64,000 nucleotides of DNA from Thelephora terrestris. Its lineage: Eukaryota; Basidiomycota; Agaricomycetes; Thelephorales; Thelephoraceae. This document shows positions 49,366 through 59,903 of the stretch, one piece after another (the stretch's first letter is position 1; every line of letters begins with the position of its first letter). The stretch is from contig WIUZ02000001.1 in assembly GCA_015956445.1 (NCBI GenBank), positions 930,001 through 994,000 of the forward strand. Direction: 5' to 3'. Both the position numbers and the translations under genes were made by a program. A model generated the notes under the pieces. The model was given only the letters and a program-made list of their open reading frames with translations, did no database searches and had not been told where the DNA came from.

Positions 49366-50036
49366 TCAAAGAATCTCACAACAGGTTGCTTGTGGTTCAG
49401 CTGGTGCTTCGGGTGCATCGTCCCTTGCCAAGATCTCCAGCACACGTGCGACCTTATGGTCGTTACCTTCTCCTGAGATTATCTGCTTGTCGACCCTTGT
49501 GCCGATGCGCACATCGGTTGCGATTCGCGGGGCCCCTTTCGCGTGCACAGCGGCGTGGCAATCGTGAATGGCCTTTGTGACTTCATGCCATGGTCCCTCT
49601 GAATGATAGGTGAATGGTCGGAAGGAGACAAATCAGGAATGGGACGGCCTCACCTAGATTGGTTCCGTAGCCACTTGATGGTTCGTCAATCCCTAAGAAG
49701 GCGAACAAGGCACATCAAGCCTACTTACTGCAACTGAACTAGAAGGTCAGCGAAACACAAAAAAGGAGAGTGCGGGGTTGTTACAAACCTTGTACTTCAA
49801 CCCGGTTCTTTCAAGCACACGCTGGCATTCTGCGATGTATTCTGCGACCTGTTCCGACACTCATTAAGACCTATGTGACGTGTCGTCCCCCCAACGGCGT
49901 ACAGATGGGTCAGGGCCAGTTCCAATTGGAACGAGACAAAAGTCTTGAACCTATATGAGCAATAGTTTAAGAACGGTTTATTTATCTGTAGATTACCTGC
50001 GACGGCGTACAGTTCTTTGGAGGATGAGGATGACAT
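49366..50036 (-). CDS. thiamine-binding-fold protein (UPF0045/Ecm15-like), 6 exons, 132 aa
   Basis: Exons 50036-49997, 49943-49903, 49848-49789, 49733-49729, 49673-49654 and 49598-49366 join to 133 codons. The introns are 53, 54, 55, 55 and 55 nt. The fold is complete: ELYAVADFCLVPIGTG, SVAEYIAECQRVLERTG, LKYKLHGYGTNLEGPW, EVTKAIHDCHAAVHAKG, APRIATDVRIGTRVDK and KVARVLEILA. This is the MTH1187/YkoF-like ferredoxin-type family; yeast Ecm15 is the named relative and some bacterial members bind thiamine. The fourth exon is only five nucleotides (TTGCA), which gives the L-H step between LKYK and GYGTN. The start codon is 31 nt from that of the EH-domain gene. Confidence 0.85.
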
Positions 50037-54998: not shown

Positions 54999-55389
54999 CG
55001 TACAAGGCTGGGGATAGAGGTCAAGAATGAGCTGGGAGAGGTTGGCGCTTGGTGAGACAAACCCGACGGCACGATCGCGCGGTTCCGAGCCTCTCTGATC
55101 AGAATGAATCACCGTCTTGCGACGGTGACTACGCCGAGACGGAGGTGGTGATGTGCGATGTAAGACGCCGTATTTCCAACAGGGAAATCCCTCAAAGTTC
55201 TGGGGGCTGATTTTTTTTTGATATAAACTCACATCTGTGCCAGAGCTCCATCACTTGACCCTGTCGCGCCGGTTCAGCCTTGTTGCCCTCTTTAATGAAG
55301 TTATTGTGTTCTTCAAATCCCTTGGGATGGGAACTGGGTGATGTGGTTTACAACAGCAAGCTACACTAGTCGCACAAACAACATGCAAA
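54999..55389. other. intergenic between HEL2 start and methyltransferase end
   Basis: 391 bp holding the HEL2 promoter and the methyltransferase 3' untranslated region. CpG content drops sharply at about 55270, on the methyltransferase side. Confidence 0.45.
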
Positions 55390-58300
55390 TTACAGCTCTG
55401 GACTATCCACTCGCATCTGTTCCTCATCCTCACCTTTCCACATTTGAACAGCTGCCTTTCCAATTGCCCTTCCGAGTGCTGCCGCAAGAGGGACTGGTAC
55501 AGCATTTCCAATTTGTCTGAATTGCTGTTTTAAGGTAGAAGGCATCAGACCGTGTCACACAAGGAGAAGAGTTGCATTGCTACCTCAGTTGTGGCAGATG
55601 ATGGATGGTCAGATTCATTCCCAAACATGTAACTGTCTGGGAATCCCTGCAACCTTGCATACTCCCTCACAGTCAGCACCCGGTTTTGCTAGCACAGGGA
55701 GTAAGTAGCATGGCTGTGGCATGGAAAATTACCCACATTTGGGTGAATCGATTTCACAATAGATGATGGGTTTGGCCCATCTGTGAGTAGAGTTGAAATG
55801 TAACCATCACCATCAAGTCTACCAAAAGTCTCTGCAAAGAGGAATTTCAACAGATTTCTGGGTGAGAAAGTTGTAACATACGAGTGTGGCGCTTGTATGG
55901 TTTCCCATCCTTAAATTCTGGGATGAATTTTAGGACCTCTGGCAAGTCACTATGGTTGGCGCCTGGACTGAGGGGGATGTTGATAACCCTAGCAGCATCC
56001 AGGTGATTAAATTACATGATATCAATGGTTGCCACACATACCTCTCAGCAGTTACTCTATTATACCTCTTTGTGTAGTGTTGGGATACTCTTAACCTTCC
56101 ATCCCTCATATGATATTGGTAGGTGTTGTTGGGGGGAGAGGCATAGTGTACAGGTTTGGGGAAACCAATCCAATCAGCAGGCATTTGTTCATCCCTATGG
56201 GAGGTTAGAGGTCAGAATAAGTTTACATTGGAGGACACACCAGTTAAAGACAGGCTATAGTGGAATAAGATCAGTGGTGTTACAATAAATACAGTGAAAG
56301 TACCAACCAAATCATCCAGGTAGTCATTTACAGTAACTGGAGGCAATGGCGCACATAAACAGTTGTGTAGCAGAGGATGGTTGCTTCCAGACCGTTGGAT
56401 AGGCTGGAGTTCTTCTCCATTTGCAAGTTTCTTCCTAGTAGCTCGCCTGTTGAATGTATGGGTAGGAAGGGGAAAATCTGGAAGTGGAATGTCTCCTCTG
56501 GATGCAAGAATGATGATTCTCTCCCGGTTTTGAGGTACCCCATAGCGGCCAGCTTGTAATAAAGCAATTTGGTGTTGATACCTGCACCACCTTATCAGTA
56601 GAAGTTCAGAAATTTGGTAAGATCATACCCAAGGGATGCCAAGGATGCAGTAATAAGCTTAAGCATGCCTTGAGAGACACCACCAACAAATCTCTTGTTG
56701 ACAAGTTCAGCAGCTAAAGGATGATTTATCATCCTTTCAACATTCTCCAGCATGAAGTATTTTGGCCGGTAATACTCCACATAGCTGAGCATATTGCAGA
56801 TAAGGGTGACTCTAGAAAATTTGTGACAGGAAAGTTCAGCTATGATTGGGGTAGACTTGCCTTGGGTCATCTTGTTTCTATGTAGATGTTAGCATGCAAA
56901 GAGATCAATTGATGTAGGATTACCTTTTTAAATGCCTTTCCACTAAATGCCTGACAAGGTGGCCCTGTATCAACTAATTAGAGCTAATTTTTTTTTCAAA
57001 AAATACAAATCACACCTCCAAAGATGATTTCTACATCTCCAGGTTGTGGCAATTGGTGTGATTTGCCATCTAGGGCCTCAAGTGTGGAGTGGCTGATTGC
57101 ATTTGACAGAAAGAGGTTGCAATCTTGGTTGAAAACTTGAGTATCTTGATGGTTCAGCCTACACAATCCTCAGTTTTAGTGTGAAGCCCTTTTTTTTAAC
57201 TGACCAATATGTGATTGCAGCTGGTTCATCCCACTCAATAGCCCACAGAGTCTTGACATGCCCAGATTGAGCAATCCCAGTTCCAAAGCCACCTGCACCT
57301 AGGCCTTTTAAGTACTTTTCTATCTGATATCCACAAAAATGACATACCTGCAAAAAGCTCCAGTCCCCTAAGAGGCTCATGAATTTGAAGAAACCTCTGT
57401 TCTGTGACTAGAAGATCACAGTGCAGTTGAAAACCCAAACTGTGTTTGAGGTTGACACCATGAACAACATAGTGGTCTGGAAGAGAACACCAGGTATCAT
57501 GTTCATCCTCTGACATGGAGTTATAGCTTTTGGCCCAGCAAATCCCCTCTAGCTTCTGGGTTGATATTGTTGAGACCTTAGGAGATGGAATCAGGATGAC
57601 CTATTGTAACTCATTAGGTGAAGTCCAGTGGATCCCATAAATAGTATGCATACCTCGCTGAATGGTCTCTGAGACTGATTATGTCTCATATATTCCAAGA
57701 TTATGACCTCTTCTGAATTGGGAATAGAGAGTATTTGCCCAATCTCATAGAGGTGGGAATCACCCTCTGGGATGAGGTAAACAAAGTCCATAGGGTAGAA
57801 GACAAGCCCCAGATATTTCAGACAAGGAGAAGAGGGAGAGGAGAGCAAGGTGGGGGCTTGGGCCAAAGTTTCCAGCTGAGATATACCACAGTTGTAACAA
57901 GGCATTGGAGAGCTAGAGGCTTTGAGTGCATCCTCTACAATGGATTCTGTAGGGTTGATAAACCTGCAGTGGTCTTTATCCCAGATAAAGCTTGAAAATG
58001 ATTAATCAGTGTAAGGCAAGAACTGGAAGTTTTGTCAATACCTGGTGAAGAATTCATTTGGTTGGTGGATATTGAAGGTAGGGAGGGGGGAGGAATAATG
58101 GAAGGGCTGGATATTGCATTTGCTGACAATAGCACCAATGGGAATATCAGTACACTCCAAAATGAGATAGAGCGAGTTGGGGTGGGCAGCTTCCTCCTGG
58201 ATAGTATGGGATCCAGGCACAAGCCACTGGCCATGGAACATTCTTTCTCCAGTTTGAGAATCTTGGAAGAAATACCATATCTGTGCAAACCTGAGCAGAG

Positions 58301-59745
58301 TGATGAGTGATTAGTAGTAAAACAAAAAATAATATACCAATATTGATTTGCCAGTGGATTTATACTCCTATTTGCAGAAGTAACCCCAGCTCTGACATAC
58401 TCTTCTTCAGGCTCAACCAGTACAATGTCCTTGATCTGCAGACATCTGAGAATATTTCAAAGCCCCAAAACAATGCAATCACCTGGTAAAGCGCGCAATC
58501 CACTCTTACTGAACCATGGCACCCTGGAGCTACCTCACCTGAAACCCATTGGATTTCTGGGGACACTCCATGGACTTCCACTGCCTCCCTTCCCACAGAA
58601 GAACACATTTCAAGAAGTGAATGTCCTTCTACCCTGAAGTTCTGATAATACTTGAAGACCCTCCCACAAACTTGGTCAACCCTGGGGGTAATGACTGTCA
58701 CAGGGGGTTGACCAAGCACTGGAGTCTCCTCAAGCAATTCTTCATCAGGCTCCAGGTCAGGGAAAAATTCTTGGATCAAGGGAGTGTTGATTATCCCTTG
58801 ATAGGGGAAATCCATCAGGAATTGCACAATGAATGGCACCTACAAACAATTGATAGCTTGCCCATGTTGATTAGGGGCTTTAGCTCACCTTATCACCATT
58901 TTTTAGACTCTCCTCAAAGCTCTGGGCTACATCAGGAGGGTACTCTTCCAGAATCTTCTCCTTGAAGGCAGAAGCAGTAACCTGATGGTCCTGAAGGCAA
59001 GAACTGAGGAGTGCATATGTGAGCTCATGAGTGAGCTCAAACTCCCTGAAGAGTTCTGCATAGGCAGAAGAGGGTCTGCCAATAATATACCAAGCATGCT
59101 TGGTTTCCAACCAAATCCTCCTAAATATTAAAACCATCAGCTTATGACCACCCCTATAAAGTGTCAGAGACTGTGCCTGTCCAAAACTTTCTTCTCCTCA
59201 TCAAAATCAAAGAGGCTCATAGAGCGAATATTAGAGAGCCTGAGATATTGGCAATCCTCCAAGTCAGGATCCAGCGCCTCTCCAGCGTCATCGACGACGC
59301 TCTCTGGGGCAGGAAGAACATAGCCAACGGCGCGGTAGGAAGCGAGGTGTAGTGAGTCCCTTGGCGCCAAAAGCGAATGAGGCGTGACCAGATGGCCGGT
59401 TTCGACGTCAAACACGGAGAAGCCCGTGAGTATCCTGACAGGGACAGTTCCTGTCTGCAATGAGCCGTTTCCAGGGTCTTCGCCAATGATTTCCACGTTT
59501 TCGGACTCTAGGAGTTCGTTGTCATCGGGGACATACTCAACTGATAGATAACGTGAATATAACGATGATATTGTTTGCAGCGTCAAGTCACTAACCGGGG
59601 GGCAGCTCGGCCATTCCTTTGCGTGGGTGGTGAAATCTGAGACGCGGGCGGCAGAGTAGAATGAACGACGATCGAGTACAGCAAGCGTGGGAAATGTTGA
59701 CTTGAACACCAACAAGGATAACCGCCCGTCGTGAAGCCCGCGCGG
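55390..59745 (-). CDS. DNMT1/DIM-2-type cytosine-5 DNA methyltransferase (many exons)
   Basis: The frame opens at 59745 without an ATG; the true start is unresolved, and LVFKSTFPTLAVLDRRSFYS is the first clear segment. The N-terminal part (ILTGFSVFDVETGHLVTPHS) resembles a replication-foci-type domain, followed by EFELTHELTYALLSSCLQD. BAH-like segments are near 58300-58000 and 57800. Catalytic motifs in order: I LRGLELFAG + GGFGTG; IV GGPPCQAFSG (Cys nucleophile, split by an intron after GG); VI FMLENVERM; VIII QAGRYGVPQNRERIIILASR; X QFRQIGNAVPVPLAAALG. The end is QMRVDSPEL, stop 55390-55392. One exon has 17 nt (56861-56877) and the next intron (56813-56860) is GC-AG. The gene body is almost free of CpG, unlike its first exon and all neighbours. 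It should methylate cytosine in nuclear DNA, probably as a maintenance enzyme. Confidence 0.85.
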
Positions 59746-59903
59746 TCAAATGGGCATCTCCATGGGTCTCTGCCTGTGGCTGAGCATAGAACGCTATTGC
59801 GTTCTCATCTAATTCCAATCACGACGGTTTTAACCGCACACAGCACACTACTACGTAAAAATCCAAGAGTGATAGATGACATGCTAAACCCCGGCGAGTC
59901 ACC

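Follow-up and report, generated by a model that had tools for sequence, protein, structure and literature searches.

Near-complete loss of CpG across the body of a predicted DNMT1-family methyltransferase gene with an open reading frame in Thelephora terrestris

The window analyzed here is a stretch of 64,000 nucleotides from the basidiomycete Thelephora terrestris (assembly GCA_015956445.1, contig WIUZ02000001.1, forward-strand positions 930,001 through 994,000; coordinates below count from its first letter). It contains, on the minus strand between a VPS54 gene and a HEL2/ZNF598-like RING gene, a predicted DNMT1-family C5 cytosine methyltransferase gene (55390 through 59614) whose body has lost nearly all of its CpG dinucleotides. 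The splice model of this gene was built by hand, with the frame kept throughout; it runs from an ATG at 59614 to a stop codon at 55390 in 20 exons separated by 19 introns of 46 to 59 nt, and it encodes 1,089 amino acids with no premature stops. Seventeen introns are of the GT-AG type and two (introns 2 and 12) are GC-AG; the latter lie at 59121 through 59176, with a GCACAG donor, and at 56812 through 56860, with a GCAAGT donor, the former of which we take to be the weaker. Two very small exons, of 14 nt (56241 through 56254) and 17 nt (56861 through 56877), are required for an in-frame methylase domain.

The predicted protein matches the Pfam DNA_methylase family (PF00145, 1.3e-56, residues 630 through 1068) and, once, the BAH domain (PF01426, 5.4e-13; 49.3 bits, cut-off 30.8). 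A partial match to DNMT1-RFD (PF12047, 6.8e-5) covers profile positions 66 through 122 of 144 at 23.4 bits, with a cut-off of 22. Among 48 relatives with solved structures, the 26 top-scoring ones are named DNMT1. Alignment with DNMT1 structures finds the catalytic motifs intact: LELFAGAGGFGTG, GGPPCQAFSG, FMLENV, QNRER, and GNAVPVPLA, which we take to be motifs I, IV, VI, VIII, and X, respectively. Motif I is encoded by exons 8 and 9 (57205 through 57600), interrupted by intron 8, and nearly all of motif IV by exon 11 (56924 through 56964), its initial residues coming from exon 10. An earlier note on this DNA, made from the letters alone, had called these five motifs readable, and the alignment and the open frame bear it out. 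Judged by its sequence, then, the gene is an intact member of the DNMT1 family with a whole reading frame. The combination of RFD, BAH, and C5-methylase domains is shared with the DNMT1/Masc2 class, an architecture reported for basidiomycetes (PMC7862722; PMC5073141, Dnmt1 subfamily section; these and all papers below are cited from excerpts); here, in distinction from that class, the RFD match only narrowly clears its cut-off, and Pfam matched the BAH domain once, with no second one. The 64-kb window holds no second copy of the gene. An orthologue search with a 264-residue part returned, among the best 80 of at least 524 stretches of genome contigs, matches that are bacterial or archaeal by title (best identity 35%) and, among the best 80 of 409 stretches of viral contigs, a best identity of 34%; neither set was used.

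The extent of CpG loss was defined by maximum-likelihood change-point analysis of CpG as a share of CpG, TpG, and CpA sites over positions 50000 through 63994. Three segments were best by the Bayesian information criterion (BIC), the middle one being a block from 55275 through 59218 (edges 55270/55275 and 59218/59225) in which CpG accounts for 20 of 672 such sites, against 376 of 1,058 before the block and 313 of 929 after it (34 to 36% on either side). Overlapping blocks of equal size (3,944 nt) placed outside it (n = 518) never contain fewer than 218 CpG. The ratio of observed to expected CpG (O/E) is 0.93 for the whole window and 0.14, 0.02, and 0.06 in the successive kilobase bins from 56001 to 59000. 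Direct counts give no CpG in 56770 through 57655, 4 in 56770 through 59224 (herein the core; O/E 0.03), 16 in 55281 through 56769 (O/E 0.22), and 18 in 59221 through 59441 (O/E 1.03), reproducing the 0, 4, about fifteen, and about 18 of the earlier note. The longest CpG-free stretch (56768 through 57655) is an 889-nt gap between CpGs at 56767 and 57656; further gaps inside the gene measure 731 and 517 nt, and the largest outside it 131 nt. Windows of 200 bp tell the same story: each of the 51 inside 56500 through 59220 has at most 2 CpG (mean 0.43), while each of the 1,185 overlapping windows clear of about 54900 through 59300 has at least 4 (mean 13.1). The CpG depletion of the methyltransferase gene is thus real and far beyond chance.

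A step between two levels of depletion at 56769, which the earlier note had described, is not needed: by BIC a single block is marginally preferred to a two-level model (2783.5 versus 2784.3, a near tie), and CpGs with a synonymous escape are similarly rare on the two sides of 56769 (5 in 1,024 versus 4 in 1,911 coding nt, p = 0.29). The two-level model was dropped. Scans for Rfam families, tRNAs, and tandem repeats found no match in the block, and a repeat scan of 54500 through 60000 returned only short families of 16 to 17 nt. Decay of a dead repeat fits the block poorly.

The lower edge of the block lies about 115 nt past the stop codon, directly before the CpG-normal region upstream of the HEL2/ZNF598-like gene (55000 through 55270, minus strand; 19 CpG, O/E 0.98). 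The upper one falls inside exon 2, about 390 nt past the ATG and with no intron there, so the abrupt change that had been placed at about 59224, within the gene, is confirmed: between 58496 and 59218 CpG makes up 0 of 116 CpG, TpG, and CpA sites, and from 59225 its frequency is normal. The 5′ part beyond this edge (59225 through 59614, minus strand), comprising exon 1, intron 1, and most of exon 2, has 29 CpG in 390 nt (O/E 1.05), 3 of them in the 55 nt of intron 1. An edge this abrupt within an exon would be expected of a chimeric gene whose 3′ nine tenths derived, through gene conversion or recombination, from a methylated and CpG-decayed paralogue or pseudogene, methylation having taken place at the donor and the 5′ part being that of the original active locus. 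Potential donors are plausible in that two or three DNMT1 copies are frequent in Agaricomycotina (PMC13297926, section 2.5) and a Masc2a duplication is described in Pleurotus (PMC5974365). A long-silent donor should, however, have brought stops or frameshifts, and the reading frame has none; at its lower edge the block ends together with the gene; and, outside CpG contexts, codons are chosen alike on the two sides of the upper edge (C at 9 of 16 two-fold C/T positions in the small 5′ sample and at 127 of 222 in the body). The sharpness of the upper edge leads us to keep gene conversion in consideration, as an unlikely origin.

Introns and exons of the gene were compared separately with control sets drawn from the rest of the window. 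These come from an unvalidated gene finder written for this analysis, which broke the methyltransferase gene into two pieces, joined its first exons to VPS54, and left out genes scoring below 15. The intron control comprises all predicted introns lying wholly below 55000 or above 59700 (n = 84), and the coding control combines the 16 genes predicted wholly below 55000 with the exons of VPS54 at 59900 and above; HEL2 is missing from the latter because it was not predicted. Introns 2 through 19 (spanning 55525 through 59176, minus strand) are depleted as strongly as the exons: they hold 1 CpG in 900 nt, 17 of the 18 being free of it, and their CpG O/E is 0.03 versus 0.91 in the control introns, with TpG and CpA raised to O/E 1.35 and 1.30. 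Random sampling of 18 control introns, repeated 20,000 times, gave a minimum of 37 CpG. Since the introns are depleted too, codon choice, which the earlier note had offered as a sufficient alternative, is excluded as the sole cause. The coding sequence gives the same answer: back-translation of the 977 body residues with the codon usage of the neighbouring genes yields 167 ± 10 CpG (minimum 125 in 5,000 runs), and 17 are observed.

At synonymous sites the loss is specific to CpG and affects both strands. Two-fold C/T third positions before G carry C in 2 of 77 cases versus 448 of 752 in the control (p = 4e-25), whereas before other bases the body figure given above for C stands beside 978 of 1,630 (p = 0.42). 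The opposite-strand reading of the same event is seen in codons ending in CG as a share of those ending in CA or CG, which number 5 of 81 versus 658 of 1,277, while those ending in AG as a share of AA or AG do not differ (77 of 160 versus 658 of 1,262, p = 0.36). Grouped by single neighbour base, the non-CpG synonymous contexts lie within 0.10 of the controls in raw proportions. In the core, TpG (81.1 per kb) and CpA (79.8 per kb) occur at the same frequency, with O/E values of 1.35 and 1.27, versus 1.03 and 1.06 elsewhere; the TpG and CpA that the earlier note called plentiful are raised by this measure, but their raw gain matches only part of the CpG loss, as discussed below. TpA has an O/E of 0.66 in the core, 0.72 in 55281 through 56769, and 0.65 elsewhere. 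If decay was simple, the fractions of synonymous CpG left over imply at least 2 to 3 expected hits per site and therefore a long exposure.

The equality of TpG and CpA, the TpA ratios, and the restriction of synonymous loss to CpG make a compositionally foreign source unlikely and disfavour repeat-induced point mutation (RIP) acting from CpA to TpA. The former idea, a fragment acquired horizontally from a CpG-poor lineage, had also been raised in the earlier note; it can appeal to the lower GC of the core (0.435 versus 0.522 in the surroundings) and to introns that are AT-rich outside CpG, TpG, and CpA positions too. It does not accommodate two-fold codon choice outside CpG contexts close to that of the neighbouring genes, nor a reading frame that is CpG-normal at its own 5′ end, nor the back-translation result. 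Both transfer and codon choice alone fit the block poorly, and we regard the pair as extremely improbable.

RIP, or a premeiotic process like it that mutates duplicated copies, has precedents. In Zymoseptoria tritici the methyltransferase gene dim2 was likewise scarred by its own kind of pathway, its copies being destroyed in most isolates (PMC8016269), and in the basidiomycete Rhizoctonia solani AG8 internuclear hypermutation turns CpG to TpG in coding genes, as here (PMC4014442). The differences are considerable. The dim2 case involves many copies, C:G to T:A changes by RIP, and loss of function, and the gene described here has CpG-only change and an intact frame; the Rhizoctonia hypermutation is genome-wide and polymorphic, and the present loss is local and almost complete. 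The TpA ratios give no clear sign of CpA to TpA change, synonymous sites followed by A carry C in 46 of 77 cases versus 359 of 533 in the control, and there are no nonsense mutations in 1,089 codons and no duplicate within the window. RID/Masc1 is, in the excerpted texts, absent from basidiomycetes (PMC5073141) or seldom present (PMC7862722). Classic RIP was dropped as the main cause for want of a TpA excess, nonsense mutations, and a duplicate in the window, and a RIP-like origin in any form appears very improbable to us.

The CpGs that remain suggest that selection kept the protein working. The body retains 17 coding CpGs, and for 8 of them deamination offers no synonymous product, a share above that of the control (396 of 1,912; two-sided p = 0.014). 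The coding 3′ part (55390 through 56769, minus strand) accounts for this: it retains 13, and the 8 without synonymous escape are all in arginine codons (one-sided p = 0.002). In the CpG-normal 5′ part, 24 of 26 coding CpGs have a synonymous product. From control to whole body, CpGs with an escape fall from 53.1 to 3.1 per kb. The milder depletion of the 3′ part is put down mainly to protein constraint, rather than to a second domain. Comparison of the aligned parts with human DNMT1 showed no erosion of arginine: 13 of 32 human arginines are arginine here and 2 of 32 are tryptophan or glutamine, and in the other direction 5 of 26 arginines of this protein stand opposite human glutamine or histidine. 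For that reason the low arginine share of the body (4.4% versus 6.6% in neighbouring proteins) was not used as evidence. Between 56769 and 59218 the arginine codons are all AGA or AGG, with no CGN left; deamination alone cannot convert CGN to AGR.

The genes on either side are CpG-normal, as had been noted for both. Upstream, a spacer from the methyltransferase ATG to the presumed end of VPS54 (59615 through 59903, minus strand) has 22 CpG in 59615 through 59900 (O/E 1.15); the VPS54 gene follows, with a predicted extent of 59904 through 63572 on the minus strand and a Pfam Vps54 match (2.1e-24; 86.8 bits, cut-off 27) on 60898 through 61359. The HEL2/ZNF598 identity of the other neighbour is based on a RING finger above cut-off together with a sub-threshold ZNF598 match (23.9, cut-off 27). 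Elsewhere in the window, the only tandem repeats at default score are at 2599 through 2644 (periods 12/6) and 2911 through 2945 (period 13).

We consider it probable that long-term CpG methylation of the gene body in the germ line, followed by deamination, explains the block. In this history the body CpGs of a DNMT1-family gene would have been methylated on both strands, over a long period, in the germ line of the lineage, and deamination of 5-methylcytosine would have turned nearly all of them into TpG or CpA, selection maintaining the function of the enzyme as the CpGs decayed. The methylated domain would have reached from about 390 nt inside the gene to its 3′ end, stopping short of the adjacent gene's promoter, so that the promoters of the methyltransferase and of HEL2 would have remained CpG-normal; that the 5′ end and adjoining promoter were spared is judged by CpG content only. 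Methylation as the cause, the germ line as its setting, and a working gene are steps that we infer from the DNA letters. The long-term methylation proposed in the earlier note thus gains a scar in a functional-looking gene, with introns included, CpG-only loss on both strands, and an intact frame. Background from basidiomycetes is favorable: their DNA methylation is described as mostly at CpG (PMC7862722, PMC13297926), and transposons of three species studied, with only Masc2-like DNMT1, carry CpG-only mutation signatures (PMC4352252).

As for what may have set methylation going, our first preference would be homology between duplicated DNMT1 genes, in a process like methylation induced premeiotically (MIP); the second would have the transcribed body methylated by the protein that the gene itself encodes or by DNMT5, by analogy with animals. 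A more specific version has the body of the DNMT1 gene, not its promoter, methylated in each generation by its own product, a feedback that would keep enzyme level in homeostasis; this we hold to be possible but doubtful. It would imply, just as tentatively, a gene whose CpG substrate has been burned away, which is nearing immunity, and in which selection keeps mainly the CpGs of indispensable codons.

Several observations weigh against decay by methylation. TpG and CpA together have gained about 30 per kb, about half of the 64 CpG per kb that were lost, and in silico deamination of 96% of neighbouring CpGs predicts about 194 TpG and CpA per kb, compared with 161 observed. GC outside CpG, TpG, and CpA positions is 0.29 in introns 2 through 19 versus 0.38 in the controls, and at four-fold third positions not before G it is 0.44 in the 3′ part (45 sites) versus 0.62 in the control; in the core, at 0.65, it is not lowered. 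Given this AT-richness beyond CpG, the gene was presumably somewhat AT-richer originally, or parts of it were affected by another process. A graded methylated domain would be expected to have a less sharp upper edge. CpGs without a synonymous escape have been lost too, from 13.9 per kb in the control to 2.7 in the whole body, and in the core all 4 leftover coding CpGs have a synonymous product and none is of the no-escape kind; the signal of selection therefore rests on the 3′ part. Finally, a 2026 review states that gene-body methylation was mostly lost in fungi, with exceptions (PMC13297926), and in Pleurotus CpG methylation of expressed gene bodies averages below 3% (PMC6627472).

Direct selection against CpG, for instance to shield a methyltransferase gene from silencing by its own pathway, would strike introns and exons alike and leave the protein intact, matching the data in both respects. 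Such selection would need to work against about 64 sites per kb, down to 1 CpG in 18 introns, and to leave exactly the products of deamination at synonymous sites; moreover the 5′ end and promoter, where methylation would matter most, are still CpG-normal. We judge it very improbable, and regard methylation and decay of the gene body as well supported.

Methylated genes of animals lose CpG over exons and introns with the 5′ end spared. The gene described here resembles those of insects and other invertebrates in showing this pattern in an apparently working gene; it differs in being a single gene, with a core O/E of 0.03, in an otherwise CpG-normal 64 kb, and in belonging to a kingdom from which gene-body methylation is said to have mostly disappeared (PMC13297926). 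With the MIP-like CpG to TpG decay of basidiomycete transposons it has in common the CpG-only transition signature (PMC4352252), the target here being a host gene that is intact and has no duplicate within the window. The earlier note had tied such decay in basidiomycetes to silenced repeats, which agrees with the excerpts of PMC13297926 and PMC4352252, but CpG-biased mutation is reported in genes of Rhizoctonia solani AG8 (PMC4014442). In Laccaria and Coprinopsis, oxidised forms of 5-methylcytosine are generally scarce in exons and introns (PMC8889193). None of the matches listed in the open-licence literature describes a fungal methyltransferase gene that is intact yet stripped of CpG.

Methylation-driven CpG decay is familiar from transposons and from the gene bodies of animals, and gene-body methylation is thought to have been largely abandoned by fungi. 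The present locus is a striking single case, a known type of scar in an unexpected and meaningful location. If the methylation history is true, this near-complete scar, bounded by the gene, would preserve like a fossil the trace of methylation directed against the very machinery of methylation, and whether the DNMT1 genes of mushrooms are regulated or attacked by their own pathway would become a question testable with existing fungal genomes.

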